In this document: one piece after another, positions 10,791-38,501 of the stretch
How the letters are laid out: each line of letters starts with the position of its first letter
Numbering within the stretch: the first letter of the stretch is position 1
The notes under the pieces: generated by a model
What the model saw: only the letters and a program-made list of their open reading frames with translations
The model's database searches: none
What the model was told of the DNA's origin: nothing
Position numbers and translations under genes: made by a program
IMG/VR virus record: IMGVR_UViG_3300035703_000095
Coordinates: 1 to 62,606 of that record
Length of the DNA stretch: 62,606 bases
Strand: one strand, 5' to 3'
From: a virus

Positions 10791-11663
10791 ATGCCCAATC
10801 CAAGAACAGTTTCTCAAATTAAAGCAAACTTATTGAGACCTGCTTTAACTTCTCATTTTGAAGTTGAGATTGGAATTCCACCTGGAAATGCTTTTACAGA
10901 CTTTTTAAGACTTAATGGTGTTCCTTGGAATGATTTAACAGTAAATAAACTTCGTTTAATGTGCTCAGAAGCAACTCTTCCTGGTTCTAGTTTGGCAACT
11001 CATGAGATTAATAATGACTTTACCGGAGTTACTGAAAGGCACGTATATAGAAGAATATATGATGATCGAATTGATCTTACTTTTTATGTAGACGCAGAAA
11101 ATTATTTTCCAATTAGATTTTTTGAAACTTGGATTAAGTATATTGTAGACGAAGGTATAGCCCCTCAACCTGAAAGAGGTGGAATTGGATCTAAAAATCC
11201 AAATTATTTCTATAGAATAAGATACCCTGAGGGCGATGGAAAAGGTAATAAGGGGTATGTTGCTGAGGGATTAAAAGTTATCAAATTTGAAAGAGATTAT
11301 AAACAAAAACTGGAATATGATTTTGTAAGATCATATCCAATTAGTATAACATCGATGCCAGTTTCTTATGATTCTTCATCTTTACTTAAATGTACAGTAT
11401 CAATGACATACATTAGATATGTTTTGAATCAAGGAGGTAATCTGACTCAATCACCAACACCAACACCAAAAGAACAATCATACTTCAATCAGGCTCAAGA
11501 CTACTTCTTAAATCCACAATTTGGAGTTGAGGGTCCTCAAGGAACTCCAAAGGGCCCGAATGATTTCTTAAATATTGGTAATCCTGCACTGGATCAATTT
11601 GGAGTTAGAGATCAACTTGGTAGAGGTGCTGCAGGTACAATAGGTGCAAATATTCTTGCGTAA
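10791..11663 (+). CDS. 54: Baseplate tail tube initiator gp54-like protein
   Basis: The 290-residue protein has the tail-tube pattern: SHFEVEIGIP near residue 20, a long strand pair around LMCSEATLPGSSLATHEI and RRIYDDRIDLTFYVD, then YPISITSMPVSYDSSSLL and a final MTYIRYVL. T4 gp54 shows the same order. The last 80 residues are Pro/Gly/Gln-rich. It faces the gp4 operon across a 31-base divergent promoter region. Another tube-fold protein (gp19-like) is the main alternative. Confidence 0.75.
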   Translation: MPNPRTVSQIKANLLRPALTSHFEVEIGIPPGNAFTDFLRLNGVPWNDLTVNKLRLMCSEATLPGSSLATHEINNDFTGVTERHVYRRIYDDRIDLTFYVDAENYFPIRFFETWIKYIVDEGIAPQPERGGIGSKNPNYFYRIRYPEGDGKGNKGYVAEGLKVIKFERDYKQKLEYDFVRSYPISITSMPVSYDSSSLLKCTVSMTYIRYVLNQGGNLTQSPTPTPKEQSYFNQAQDYFLNPQFGVEGPQGTPKGPNDFLNIGNPALDQFGVRDQLGRGAAGTIGANILA

Positions 11664-11704: not shown

Positions 11705-12424
11705 ATGCCTTTACCAAAGATTGCAACGCCAACATATGAACTTGAATTGCCATCAACAGGAGAAACAATTCAATACAGACCATTCCTAGTCAAGGAAGAA
11801 AAACTTCTTGTAATTGCACTAGAGTCTGAGGATACTAAACAGATTACTACTGCAATCAAGTCAGTCATTAAAAATTGTATTCAATCAAAAGGAATTAAAG
11901 TAGAATCTCTTCCAACTTTTGATATTGAATATCTATTCTTGAACATTCGTGGAAAATCAGTTGGAGAAGAACTTGAGGTTAATATTATTTGTCCAGATGA
12001 TGAAGAGACCACAACTTCAGTTACAATCAATTTAGACGACATTAAAGTTCAGAAGAACGAAAATCATACAAACAAAATTAAAGTTGATCCAAAGATCATG
12101 ATGGAAATGAAGTATCCATCATTGGATCAATTTATTAAAAATAACTTTGATCTGAACGATGCAAGTGCAATGGATCAATCATTTGATCTGATTGCATCAT
12201 GTATCGATAAAATATACACAGAAGATGAAGTTTGGTCTGCTGCTGACGTTACTAAAAAAGAGTTGAATGAATTTTTGGAGCAAATGAATTCAGCTCAATT
12301 CAAAGAAATTGAAAAATTCTTTGAATCTATGCCAAGACTTTCTCATAAAATTAAGGTAACAAATCCAAAGACAGAAGTTGAAAGTGAGGTAGTTCTAGAA
12401 GGGTTAGCATCTTTTTTCGCATAG
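11705..12424 (+). CDS. 26: Baseplate hub assembly protein gp26 (T4 baseplate family)
   Basis: The 239-residue protein begins LPKIATPTYELELPSTGETIQYRPFLVKEEK split over two strands, typical of the T4 gp26 baseplate family (PF12322), with later DIEYLFLNIRGKSVGEE and an acidic helical C-terminus. The family acts in hub assembly. Its last codons contain a T TTT TTC slippery heptamer (12412-12418), and the -1 frame runs straight into the next small ORF. This resembles G/GT tail chaperones, and the genes that follow look like tape-measure genes. Confidence 0.85.
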   Translation: MPLPKIATPTYELELPSTGETIQYRPFLVKEEKLLVIALESEDTKQITTAIKSVIKNCIQSKGIKVESLPTFDIEYLFLNIRGKSVGEELEVNIICPDDEETTTSVTINLDDIKVQKNENHTNKIKVDPKIMMEMKYPSLDQFIKNNFDLNDASAMDQSFDLIASCIDKIYTEDEVWSAADVTKKELNEFLEQMNSAQFKEIEKFFESMPRLSHKIKVTNPKTEVESEVVLEGLASFFA

Positions 12425-12442
12425 CCCTGGTCCATATGGACC
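12412..12442 (+). promoter_or_regulatory. Probable programmed -1 frameshift signal
   Basis: The heptamer T TTT TTC (12412-12418) is in the correct phase for -1 slippage on gp26 codons TTT and TTC, two codons before the gp26 stop. Ten bases later GGTCC (12429-12433) and GGACC (12438-12442) form a short hairpin. After slippage the frame reads CGC ATA GCC CTG GTC CAT and then the ATG of the following ORF without a stop. Confidence 0.72.
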
Positions 12443-12615
12443 TTGAAAACTATTTTCGACTTAATTTTGCCTTGATGCAGTACCATAAATATTCTTTGAC
12501 AGAGATTGAAAATTTGATGCCTTGGGAACGTGATATTTACGTCGCTTTATTAGAACAACATCTCGAAGAAGAAAAATTAAAGCAACAACAAGCAAATGGC
12601 AGTCAGTTCTTCTAA
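12436..12615 (+). CDS. Small helical protein, frameshift extension of gp26 or separate gp51-position protein
   Basis: From its own ATG (12436) the ORF gives 59 residues, MDLENYFRLNFALM...QQANGSQFF, all helical in character with a Gln/Glu-rich end. The same frame is open upstream into gp26 through a slippery site, so it may be made as a gp26 fusion of about 303 residues, as a free protein, or both. Its own ATG lies in the hairpin and lacks a clear ribosome binding site. It occupies the position of gene 51 in T4 but is much shorter. It overlaps the next gene by 20 bases. Confidence 0.75.
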   Translation: MDLENYFRLNFALMQYHKYSLTEIENLMPWERDIYVALLEQHLEEEKLKQQQANGSQFF

Positions 12616-14959
12616 AAATTTATTACCTCCAGGTAAAACGAAGGGTGGGACTGCACTTGTCAGTGAAAAGATAGACGAAAGAATACTTAGGTTAATTGGT
12701 CAAGAAGAAGTTTTTGATATTGATTATGATACATATGCTTCTCTACTAAGAGAAGCAATGATAAGAGGTAGGATGTCTAAAACATCAATACCTACAGAAG
12801 AGATTGAGTTAGTTACAAATGAGTGGAAAAGAGTAAAGGGAAAGAAAGGAAGATTTAAAGTTAAAAAAATTAGTGCCGAAAGTTTTAAAAAAGGAAGTTC
12901 TGTTGGAATCAATTTTTTAAAGCAAAAAAGACTTGCTCCAGTAAAACCACTTTCTCTTTTACCATCAATAGAAAAGTTAAAAGAGAAAAATGAAGTACAA
13001 GAAATTATTGGTCTTCTTGGAGAAATAATTAAGAGTTTAACTCTTTCAAATAAGAATAAGAAAAATGCAGATGAAAAAAGAAGAAAGTCTGAAGAAGCAG
13101 AAAAAAGAGGTCTAGCAGAATCTGCACTTGAAAAAGGTTTTAAAGGAGCAATAAAAGTTGCTGAAAAGATTATTGCACCAATAAAATCATTATTAAGTAG
13201 AATTCTTGATTACTTCACTGCAATTTTCTTGGGAAGAGTTGTTATTAAACTCCTTGAATGGTTTTCAAATCCAGATAATGCAGAAAAGATTAAAACCATC
13301 GGTAGATTTCTTGGTGATCACTGGCCAAAATTATTAAGTCTTTATCTTCTATTCGGTACACAATTTGGTGGATTTGTAAGGAGTTTAATATCTTTATTGG
13401 TAAAAGGCGGTGCAACTCTTCTTAAAGTTGCACTGGGCCTAGCAGCAAAAGCAGGTCTAGGTAAAGCAGGTAAATTTTCAAAATTTTTAGGTGGTAAAAA
13501 AGGAAAACTTTTAGTTGCTGGAGTTGAAGCAGCTACTACAGTTGGTGCCACAATGGCACTTAGTAGCGGTATTGAAAATTTTGCAGGAATAGGTGGAGGA
13601 GAACCAAAAACACAAAAGTTTTCTGGTGGGGGATTAGCAATTCCAAAATTTAGTGGAGGTGGTTTTAACCTTAAAGGTATGATGGGCGGCGCTAGTATAG
13701 GTGCTATGTTTGGACCTTTGGGAATGCTTCTTGGTGGTGCCTTAGGATCTAAACCACAAGAAGGTGGTTTTGTGAGTGGTGAAAAGGGTGTTGATAAAGT
13801 TCCTGCTATGTTAAGTGATGGTGAATTTGTTATGTCCCGTAAAGCTGTACAAAAATATGGTGTTGATACCTTAGAGTCTATGAATGCCGCTGCTGGCGGA
13901 ACAAATAGGCCTAAAATGATTAGTGGAGCAACCTATGCTTATGGCGGAGGTCTTATTGGTAAATCTCCAGATACAAAAGAGAAACCACCCAAAGAAACTT
14001 TCAGACCCGATGCACTTCAATCAGCAAAAGCACTTGCTTCGGGTAAAGGTGTGAATGTTAAAGGAGAAAGCACCGGAAGAAATCTTGGTACGGGTTATGG
14101 TGCAAAATATAATGGAAGAGATGCTTTTGTTATTAAGAATGGTGCAAATAATATGGATCTTTCTGTGACTTTAGGCGGAAAAAGATACTATGGAATGAAA
14201 AAGGGAAATGATGCAGTTTATACTGCATTAGATAGAAGAGATGCTGCAATTTCCGGTGGAGGTTTATTCCAACCGGGAGGATTATTTGGAGGACCAAAAA
14301 TGTCCTCAAGAATGGATTATGCACAATCAAAAGGAAAGTATTATTCTTCTTCTGATCGAAAGACTTATGGGAATTATAATGATGCATTAGCTGCTAAAAA
14401 ATCAAGAATGATATCTTTGGCATCTCAACAAAGATTGGACAAATTAACCTGGGGAAATGTTGGTCCAGATATGATGCCCAAAAGATTTTCTGAAGAAAAT
14501 AGAGTACGTAAAGAAGAGTATGATAAGAGGGGTGGATTTTTTGGTCAGATTGGTAGAGGTTTGACCTCAATGTTTGGAACATATAAGGATATTGATAAGA
14601 ATAAAGCAGCAGATAAGGCATCAGAGGCAAGAGCAAAGCAAGCTGGTGCTGCATCTATTGGTAGATACTATTCTTCCTCTGATGGTAAGTATTATAAAGA
14701 TTACAATGCAGCAGTAAAGGCAAAAAATTTAAGGACTGAAGAAAGAAAAAATTCAGCAAAAATATCTCCATCTAAACCAAATATAAAACCATTGGCACCA
14801 CCTCCTAGACAACAAGTAAAGGTAAGAACTAAACCTATTGGAAGTGGAAAAGGTGGTGTATCAAAGCCAGTTGGTGGAGCACCAAAAACACCAAACTTTG
14901 GTGCAACTTGTCCGTCAAGTAATGCACGTAAAAACAAAAAGATTTTGGGTATTTTCTAA
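12596..14959 (+). CDS. Tape-measure-like tail protein
   Basis: A 787-residue protein. The N-terminal 150 residues are basic and helical, a charged coiled-coil stretch follows at about 150-175, and hydrophobic helices occupy roughly 195-320. At about residues 389-422 the motif GVDKVPAMLSDGEFVMSRKAV appears; tape-measure proteins carry this kind of motif near the C-terminus. A Gly-rich region and two copies of a YYSSSD-x-K-x-Y repeat (near residues 582 and 698) complete it. It directly follows the gp26 frameshift pair, as tape measures follow G/GT. It could instead be a hub protein. Confidence 0.65.
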   Translation: MAVSSSKNLLPPGKTKGGTALVSEKIDERILRLIGQEEVFDIDYDTYASLLREAMIRGRMSKTSIPTEEIELVTNEWKRVKGKKGRFKVKKISAESFKKGSSVGINFLKQKRLAPVKPLSLLPSIEKLKEKNEVQEIIGLLGEIIKSLTLSNKNKKNADEKRRKSEEAEKRGLAESALEKGFKGAIKVAEKIIAPIKSLLSRILDYFTAIFLGRVVIKLLEWFSNPDNAEKIKTIGRFLGDHWPKLLSLYLLFGTQFGGFVRSLISLLVKGGATLLKVALGLAAKAGLGKAGKFSKFLGGKKGKLLVAGVEAATTVGATMALSSGIENFAGIGGGEPKTQKFSGGGLAIPKFSGGGFNLKGMMGGASIGAMFGPLGMLLGGALGSKPQEGGFVSGEKGVDKVPAMLSDGEFVMSRKAVQKYGVDTLESMNAAAGGTNRPKMISGATYAYGGGLIGKSPDTKEKPPKETFRPDALQSAKALASGKGVNVKGESTGRNLGTGYGAKYNGRDAFVIKNGANNMDLSVTLGGKRYYGMKKGNDAVYTALDRRDAAISGGGLFQPGGLFGGPKMSSRMDYAQSKGKYYSSSDRKTYGNYNDALAAKKSRMISLASQQRLDKLTWGNVGPDMMPKRFSEENRVRKEEYDKRGGFFGQIGRGLTSMFGTYKDIDKNKAADKASEARAKQAGAASIGRYYSSSDGKYYKDYNAAVKAKNLRTEERKNSAKISPSKPNIKPLAPPPRQQVKVRTKPIGSGKGGVSKPVGGAPKTPNFGATCPSSNARKNKKILGIF

Positions 14960-14962
14960 CAT

Positions 14963-17884
14963 ATGGAAAACAAAGCACTTCCTCCTGCAAAAATTGATCC
15001 AAAAAAACTTTTACCTGGGAAGGGTACGTCTGCGATTGTTAAAAAAATTAGTTCAAGATCTGTCGAAAAATCTAGTGATGGACTTTCTGTTTCTAATTTA
15101 GAACTAGGTATAATTAAGAAGCAGGTTATAAGGGTAAGAGATTTAATATCAACAAGTGCTTTACTTGAGAAAGAAGAAGAAAAGAGAAAAAGAAAAAATC
15201 AAGAACAAAAAAGATTTAAAGAAAAAGAGGAAAAGTTAGAAAAACCAAAAGAGGAAGGAAAAGAAAAAATTAAATTACCATCTGCACCAAAATTAAGTTT
15301 TCTTGATAGAATTAAAAAGTTTTTATTCAATATTTTACTTGGATTTATTGTCGTAAAATTAATCCCACAAGCTCCAAAATTAATTCAAGTTGCAAAATTA
15401 GCAGGTCAAGCATTAGATTTTATAACTGATTGGGGAGGAAAACTTTTAAATGGACTTGTAACTTTTATTGATTGGGGTTATAAGGCATATGATGGAACAA
15501 GAAAGTTTTTGAGTAATTTAGGTGGAGAAAACTTTGCTAAAGTCTTTGATACTTTTAATGGGGTAGTTGGTAAGGTTATTGAAGCAGCTATTACAACCGC
15601 AATAGTTCTTGGAAGTCAAGGAGATGATGGTGTTCTTGACATTGGTATGGACATGTTGAAGGACCGATTTCTTGGTAAAGGTGCTCAACAAGCAGCTCAG
15701 ACTGGTGCTCAGGCAGCAGGACAAGTAGGAAAAACTGCTGGAATGGGTGCTGGTGCAGTTGCAGGTATTGTTGCTGGTGCTGGACTACTTGCATCTGCTT
15801 TAGGTGAAGGTGCATTTCAAGTAAGAAAGTTTGCAATAAAACCGATACAAAATCTTGAAAAAGCATATAAAGATGATAAAAATCCATTTACAAAATTTGG
15901 TCGTGGTGTTGTTCTTAATATGGTTAGACCTCTTTATGGTCTATTTTCTGCTGTAGGATTCTTACTAGATGTAGTTGGTGCTCCTTTCAGATATGCAATT
16001 GAACTATTACGTTTTCCATTTTTAAGTGAAGAAGATAAAAAGAAACAAGCATCCAATCTATCAAAATTTGATGCAAGAATTCGTGAGGATTTGAGAAAAG
16101 CATTAAATATGCTTACTCTTGGATTAGCATTTAAAGAAAAGGGTTCCTTTGGAAACATTTATGGAAACAAAGGTACTCAAAAAGAGATGATGAGTAAGAT
16201 GGCAGGTGGTGGAATTACTAGAGCTGGTAGAAAAGTCGGCGGTCCAGCAAGAAGAAAGATTAAAAAGAGTAAAGTAAAGAGAGAAATAAGAATTGAACCA
16301 ACAGAATTAAAACCTGGTGCTAATGTTGGTGGAGACAAAAAAATACAAAAAATATTTCCAAAGTCTGAATCGACTGATACAGTAAATCCATTGGGATATA
16401 CTGAAACTTTTTATGATAAGACTAGTGAAATACCTTTTTTTGGTCCTATTTTTGGATTAGCAACAAAATCTTTGGTTGGACAAAAACCTTCTCGTGTTGA
16501 TTATGAAAATGTTGGAAAGGGATTGAATTCTTGGATGGATAATACTTTTAGTAGAGATATATTACGAACTGGAGGAGCATTTGCTGGTGGAGGAGAAGTT
16601 AACTCTGAAATGTTTATGAAAGGAGAAGATCTATCAAGAATTATTGCAAAATCTGTTGAGGACAATATTTCTTCAAGATTAGATAATACAATGAATGAAT
16701 TAATGAAGCAGTTGATGTTGAAAGATATTGATAGAGGAAAAGAACCAGGACAAACAACTCCAGGTGCTGAGGAAGAACCATCAGGATCTCCAACTCTCAC
16801 GGGTAATAGCAACGCAGAAAAAGTTTTTCGTTATTTGACAGATAAAGAAGGATTTACTCCAGAAGCTGCTGCAGGTATTATTGGAAATCTTATGCAGGAA
16901 TCTGGGGTTAATCCTAAATCCAGGCAACTTGGTGGCGGTCCTGGTAGAGGTATTATGCAATGGACAGAAAGTGAGAGATGGGCATCATTAAGCGCATGGG
17001 CAAACAACTCAGGAAAAGATCCTTGGGCACTTGAAACTCAGGTTGAATGGATGGTTAAGGAAATGAAGTCTTATGGAACATATAATCGTATTAAAAGTGT
17101 AACTTCATATAAAAAAGCAGTTGAAATATTCGAGCGTGAAATGGAAAGAGCGGGTACTCCAAACTATCCTAGAAGATATAAGTATGCTGCAGATGCTCTT
17201 GCAAGTTTTGGTGGTAAAGCAGGAGGTCCGGGAATTCAATTGGGTAAAGGATATGGTAGTGAGGGTAGTAAAATTGCTGGAGAACTTGGTAAATTTATTA
17301 AATCTCAATTAAGAAGTCCGGCACAATTCCAGGCCGTCACAGAACACCCAGAACATGGTGGAGTTAGAGGAAGACATGCAAGTGGATCCTATCATTACTC
17401 TAACCGCGCTATCGATATTGGTGCATATACTCATGAGCAAGGTCCAATTTTAAATGTAATTGCTCAATTTAACAAAATGAAAGGTGTCAAACCAGTTGAA
17501 TTGCTTCATGGAGGAAATGATTCTGGACACAGAGATCATGTTCACGTTGCGTATGGAAAAGGTGGTTTAGTTAGAGGATTTACGAAGGCAATACTTGGTG
17601 AGCGCGGTATTGAGTTTGTTCTTGACACGGATACTACCTCAGCATTAGAACAAAATTTCCCTGGATTCTTGAGTGAATTGAACAAAGCAAATTATGATGG
17701 TGCTATTCAGGTTTTAAGAAATTATGCATCATACGAATCTGGAGCTTCTATGGAAGTTGTTGTCGATCAACCAGAACCAGAAGTTGTCTATGTTCCAATG
17801 CCTATCTCCAGACAGTCTATGATTTCTCCCACATCAAATTCTGGGTTTGATTCTTCATATGATTATTCTTATAAGAATGGTTAA
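14963..17884 (+). CDS. Tape-measure/hub protein with lysozyme and M15-like peptidase domains
   Basis: The 973-residue protein has a Lys/Glu coiled coil (about 70-105), a hydrophobic helix (about 120-135), an Ala/Gly-rich part and then enzyme domains. At about 616-760 it matches phage tail lysozyme: EAAAGIIGNLMQESG, then GRGIMQWTESERW. At about 788-870 it resembles M15 peptidases: HYSNRAIDIG followed by GHRDHVHVAY (metal-binding His/Asp and H-x-H). The GERGIEFVLD motif near the end is also tape-measure-like. It probably digests peptidoglycan during DNA entry. Three bases separate it from the previous gene. Confidence 0.75.
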   Translation: MENKALPPAKIDPKKLLPGKGTSAIVKKISSRSVEKSSDGLSVSNLELGIIKKQVIRVRDLISTSALLEKEEEKRKRKNQEQKRFKEKEEKLEKPKEEGKEKIKLPSAPKLSFLDRIKKFLFNILLGFIVVKLIPQAPKLIQVAKLAGQALDFITDWGGKLLNGLVTFIDWGYKAYDGTRKFLSNLGGENFAKVFDTFNGVVGKVIEAAITTAIVLGSQGDDGVLDIGMDMLKDRFLGKGAQQAAQTGAQAAGQVGKTAGMGAGAVAGIVAGAGLLASALGEGAFQVRKFAIKPIQNLEKAYKDDKNPFTKFGRGVVLNMVRPLYGLFSAVGFLLDVVGAPFRYAIELLRFPFLSEEDKKKQASNLSKFDARIREDLRKALNMLTLGLAFKEKGSFGNIYGNKGTQKEMMSKMAGGGITRAGRKVGGPARRKIKKSKVKREIRIEPTELKPGANVGGDKKIQKIFPKSESTDTVNPLGYTETFYDKTSEIPFFGPIFGLATKSLVGQKPSRVDYENVGKGLNSWMDNTFSRDILRTGGAFAGGGEVNSEMFMKGEDLSRIIAKSVEDNISSRLDNTMNELMKQLMLKDIDRGKEPGQTTPGAEEEPSGSPTLTGNSNAEKVFRYLTDKEGFTPEAAAGIIGNLMQESGVNPKSRQLGGGPGRGIMQWTESERWASLSAWANNSGKDPWALETQVEWMVKEMKSYGTYNRIKSVTSYKKAVEIFEREMERAGTPNYPRRYKYAADALASFGGKAGGPGIQLGKGYGSEGSKIAGELGKFIKSQLRSPAQFQAVTEHPEHGGVRGRHASGSYHYSNRAIDIGAYTHEQGPILNVIAQFNKMKGVKPVELLHGGNDSGHRDHVHVAYGKGGLVRGFTKAILGERGIEFVLDTDTTSALEQNFPGFLSELNKANYDGAIQVLRNYASYESGASMEVVVDQPEPEVVYVPMPISRQSMISPTSNSGFDSSYDYSYKNG

Positions 17885-38475: not shown

Positions 38476-38501
38476 GTAAAAAATAACGGGGATAGTGAAC
38501 C

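Follow-up and report, generated by a model that had tools for sequence, protein, structure and literature searches.

The locus examined here raises the question of whether the gp26 gene of a T4-like phage and the 59-residue open reading frame behind it are two independent genes, or whether they are joined by a programmed -1 ribosomal frameshift into a short and a long tail assembly chaperone, as a first-pass annotation had proposed. The DNA studied is a virus record of 62,606 bases (IMG/VR IMGVR_UViG_3300035703_000095), and this whole stretch is called the window below. From the sequence comparisons we conclude with high confidence that a T4-like marine phage encodes its tail chaperone pair here: gp26 would be the short chaperone (TAC-N) and a -1 ribosomal frameshift product of 303 residues the long one (TAC-NC). 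The membership of the first gene in the gp26 family is clear from its matches to PF12322 (T4_baseplate, E=8.9e-78) and phrog_150 (E=2.7e-82); the NCBIfam search gave nothing above the cut-off and the sequence search of the PDB no useful relative. The features of the locus are collected in Table 1.

Table 1. Features of the gp26 frameshift locus (positions in the window)
Feature	Position	Strand	Description	Basis
gp26, TAC-N (short tail assembly chaperone)	11705..12424	+	239 aa including the terminal Ala past the slip site	PF12322, phrog_150
SD-like GAAGGG	12398..12403	+	candidate internal Shine-Dalgarno stimulator, 8 nt upstream of the heptamer	codon choice
Slippery heptamer T_TTT_TTC	12412..12418	+		T_TTT_TTC in 225, T_TTT_TTT in 31 of 256 distinct junctions
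TAC-C extension	12418..12615	+	-1 frame, 65 codons + stop	phrog_634; tblastn
Zero-frame stop TAG of gp26	12422..12424	+		sequence
Stem-loop GGTCC-ATAT-GGACC	12429..12442	+	10-nt spacer after the heptamer	covariation, folding energy
Downstream large tail protein	12596..14959	+	787 aa, tape-measure candidate	phrog_35029 E=1.6e-51 (unknown function)

The gp26 gene ends with the codons TCT TTT TTC GCA TAG, and the zero-frame codon boundaries divide the heptamer as T_TTT_TTC, which is the phase needed for tandem -1 slippage. This phase had been recognized in the first-pass annotation; its placement of the slip site two codons before the stop has to be amended, since only one codon, GCA, lies between the heptamer and the stop. 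The -1 frame reads TTT TTT CGC ATA GCC CTG GTC CAT ATG (the ATG at 12436) and, as had been stated, runs without a stop from the slip site past the ATG of the 59-residue ORF; it ends with the TAA at 12613-12615. The predicted fusion would carry the junction peptide ...LASFF-RIALVHMDLENYF, and its earlier estimate of about 303 residues agrees with the sum of 238 and 65. The window has 82 mechanically called ORFs with a length of 100 aa or more, and among these there is only one other in-phase run of six T near a stop, namely T_TTT_TTA at 38477-38483 on the minus strand, near the end of a probably spurious minus-strand ORF. This was rejected as a second frameshift site and regarded as background, its -1 extension being just 13 codons long.

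Relatives were collected from IMG/VR with the window, pf16, Mosig, Ackermannviridae and P-SSM2 as queries, and annotated phages were added; the contig scan with an Aeromonas gp26 query returned no contigs. A first set was selected with gp26 homology as the sole criterion, the heptamer playing no part, and 83 of its cyanophage junctions were complete at the end. In 83/83 of these an in-phase T_TTT_TTC precedes the second domain, which is read in the -1 frame, and the alignment of the junction across T4-like cyanophages, which had been suggested earlier as a check, showed the heptamer, the -1 phase and the downstream ORF all to be kept. Among 83 close relatives there is no variation in the heptamer columns, while the adjacent wobble positions vary, and in 82 of them the slip is followed by CGN, an Arg codon in the -1 frame. 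The pooled set, which was built from loci with T_TTT_TTC or T_TTT_TTT, contains 256 distinct junctions after de-duplication; in all 256 the -1 frame carries the second domain, and in 198 of them the distance from the first base of the heptamer to the stop is 10 nt. In many marine relatives (L085, L136, L148, L222, L226 and similar loci) the zero-frame stop comes 31-61 nt past the heptamer start, therefore their short form has extra residues beyond the slip site.

The codon usage of the slip site was compared in 279 sequences, which had been chosen for the T6 heptamer: the first slip Phe is TTT and the preceding codon ends in T in all 279, for the second slip Phe 246 have TTC and 33 have TTT, and each of the six other conserved Phe columns of the gene holds a mixture of TTT and TTC. 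An in-phase slippery heptamer of the X_XXY_YYZ class of -1 frameshift sites is kept across the relatives.

Annotations of relatives name the second domain gp51, 'baseplate hub assembly catalyst'. Its 59-aa part from the ATG at 12436 matches phrog_634 (E=8.5e-27) and also positions 242-281 of phrog_150, and the latter match suggests that some members of phrog_150 are fused proteins. It could be argued that the 59-aa ORF is a gene in its own right (gp51), whose translation starts at this ATG and is perhaps coupled to the termination of gp26: many deposited cyanophage genomes annotate it separately, the ATG is in frame in the window phage, and most relatives have an ATG among their first 10 -1 codons. 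We consider this very improbable. In 102/256 relatives there is no ATG among these 10 codons, so in them the second ORF is no gene of its own, and the conserved domain begins at the slip codon: the tblastn matches of the extension start at the first post-slip codon, upstream of the ATG, in most of the phage records listed, and 35 aligned extensions are conserved from the first post-slip residue on. Moreover, a free 59-aa product would leave the invariant heptamer unexplained, the ATG overlaps the hairpin described below, and in T4 the same domain is fused in frame in gp51. The whole genomes of P-SSM2, S-PM2 and S-CAM1 were searched for a separate long gene and none was found; these phages have only a gp26 with its stop and the domain in the -1 frame.

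T4 offers the in-frame equivalent of the predicted fusion. T4 gp51 matches phrog_150 over positions 13-280 as well as phrog_634, and in hhalign comparisons its N part aligns with the gp26 profile (E=2e-7) and its C-terminus with the -1 domain (E=1.4e-6). In T4, gp26 corresponds to TAC-N, whereas gp51 combines a TAC-N-like part and TAC-C in one frame; the whole T4 genome holds this full-length second long gene separately from gp26, and since the two genes are divergently oriented, there is no frameshift in T4. The T4-like chaperone genes of Vladimirov and co-workers are said to be the gp26 and gp51 families, which agrees with the T4 gp51 profile matches and the whole-genome comparison made here. 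Compared with other gp51 proteins, that of cyanophages was noted to lack ~200 aa at its start (Sullivan et al. 2010, PMC3037559), and the frameshift would supply just these residues, thus it would account for this remark.

The first-pass annotation had equated gp26 with G and the fusion with GT of phage lambda. This proposed equivalence to the short and long chaperones gpG and gpGT is supported by the conserved heptamer, phase and downstream domain and by the in-frame fusion in T4 gp51. Compared to lambda, the present locus has T_TTT_TTC with a covarying hairpin and an AGGG motif, and it belongs to a contractile T4-type tail. Weak additional support for the likeness of gp26 to G comes from modelling gp26 with AlphaFold2 (mean pLDDT 84, the alignment consisting of the window and the fetched related contigs only): among PDB entries 2OB9, the tail assembly chaperone of HK97, matches the model with the highest probability (0.84; E 0.94, not significant). 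The similarity of fold is therefore suggestive at most.

Downstream of the heptamer the 5-bp hairpin reported at first pass, 10 bases past the slip site, is indeed present. Its spacer is on the long side for a -1 frameshift, and its predicted MFE is -8.3 kcal/mol, which gives z=-10.6 against a synonymous-codon (codon-preserving) null that ignores relatedness. Compensatory changes were found at all 5 pairs with 84.6% of the cells paired, and the covariation score was reached by 0/500 shuffles and was lower in every slid control. All five stem pairs form in about half of 79 close junctions.

Upstream of the heptamer an AGGG is kept in 82/83 close relatives by switching between GAG GGN and GAA GGG at the Glu-Gly codons before the slip site. 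In the rest of the gene just 17/329 Gly codons are GGG, and most Glu codons are GAA. The SD-like energy has z=-7.0 against a gene-usage null, but shuffling codons within columns gave no SD-like energy signal (z=-0.06), consequently the case for the AGGG is based on codon choice and not on pairing-energy covariation. The frameshift site of E. coli dnaX is composed of an upstream SD-like element, a slippery heptamer and a downstream hairpin. The arrangement of AGGG, heptamer and hairpin found here resembles this internal Shine-Dalgarno layout, while dnaX differs in its A_AAA_AAG heptamer and tighter spacer and in being a cellular gene.

An identical long protein would also be produced if the RNA polymerase, instead of the ribosome, slipped on the T-run, and this run reaches 7 T in 31/256 relatives. 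In the other 225, however, it consists of 6 T followed by C, which is short for transcriptional slippage, and the phase-specific codon constraint together with the covarying hairpin fits ribosomal -1 slippage; slippage during transcription is accordingly even less probable than a separate gp51 gene. T-runs are common in AT-rich DNA, and 9 in-phase T6 runs occur in the ORFs of the window, but the least probable explanation of all, a chance motif or a sequencing error splitting one gene, was rejected by the identical split, phase and heptamer in the 256 distinct junctions, which come from contigs and isolates independent of one another.

Loci devoid of the heptamer were found in two T4-type phages, in Ackermannviridae and in Vibrio phage D533, and four further loci carry it farther upstream of the stop. 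In Kuttervirus-type Ackermannviridae (L088 2938-3741, L257-L274) gp26 ends with GAR ATT TTC ATY TAA; a TAC-C-like domain is open in the -1 frame, usually with no ATG at the junction, and no X_XXY_YYZ heptamer was found at these gp26 ends (R_ATT_TTC_ATY_TAA). In Vibrio phage D533 (L091 2899-3639) gp26 ends with CTT TTC AAG TAA and the -1 ORF has an overlapping TAATG start; this ORF may use reinitiation. Tentatively, and we regard it as rather unlikely, the hairpin over the ATG and the AGGG might both stimulate slippage and suppress independent initiation, so that TAC-C would be made only in the fusion, and the Ackermannviridae might reach the long form by a different, undescribed route.

For the ribosomal frameshift, which we prefer, we infer the slippage itself, its efficiency and the chaperone action as follows. 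Most ribosomes would stop at the TAG and release gp26. A minority, with tRNA-Phe in the P and A sites on T_TTT_TTC, would move back by one base to TTT TTT and read on in the -1 frame to 12615, resulting in TAC-NC; the downstream stem-loop, Shine-Dalgarno-like pairing of the upstream AGGG and the near stop codon would be likely helpers. If the pair works like lambda gpG/gpGT, the role of TAC-N would be to coat the tape measure protein, and that of TAC-C to bring in the tail tube subunit.

Large tail genes directly follow the chaperone locus; the 787-aa protein has only weak matches to tape-measure families, which weakly suggests that these genes encode the tape measure. Further downstream, 14963-17884 encodes a protein of 973 aa that contains a Phage_lysozyme2 domain (PF18013, E=5e-31). 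Directly upstream of gp26, at 10791-11663, there is a homologue of the tail tube protein (PF23849, E=2.4e-9).

It had been said at first pass that no such frameshift was known for T4-type gp26, and a 2016 review (PMC5009743) considered the G-T frameshift widely conserved 'except T4'. The former statement is contradicted by Vladimirov, Gautam and Davidson (2022; Virology 566:9-15, PMID 34826709), who identified tail chaperone genes of T4-like phages, as this work is cited in PMC10885494 for T4-like phages with separate short and long genes and in PMC12846349 for poly-T signals of -1 frameshifting that T4-like phages have in their TAC-N genes. A conserved -1 site with a poly-T slippery sequence and an open -1 frame is also present in the TAC locus of Vandenendeviridae/Andersonviridae, which differs in its GTTTTT motif and belongs to another phage lineage (PMC12846349).

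The frameshift signal described here is real, and according to these citing papers the chaperone frameshift of T4-like phages has been known in kind since 2022. Relative to Vladimirov et al. 2022 as represented there, the present analysis adds the breadth of conservation, the covariation of the hairpin, the AGGG motif and the exception of the Ackermannviridae. It corrects the many genomes of cyanophages and marine T4-like phages that list 'gp51' as a short gene of its own, and provides marine material for measuring the chaperone ratios of T4-type tails.
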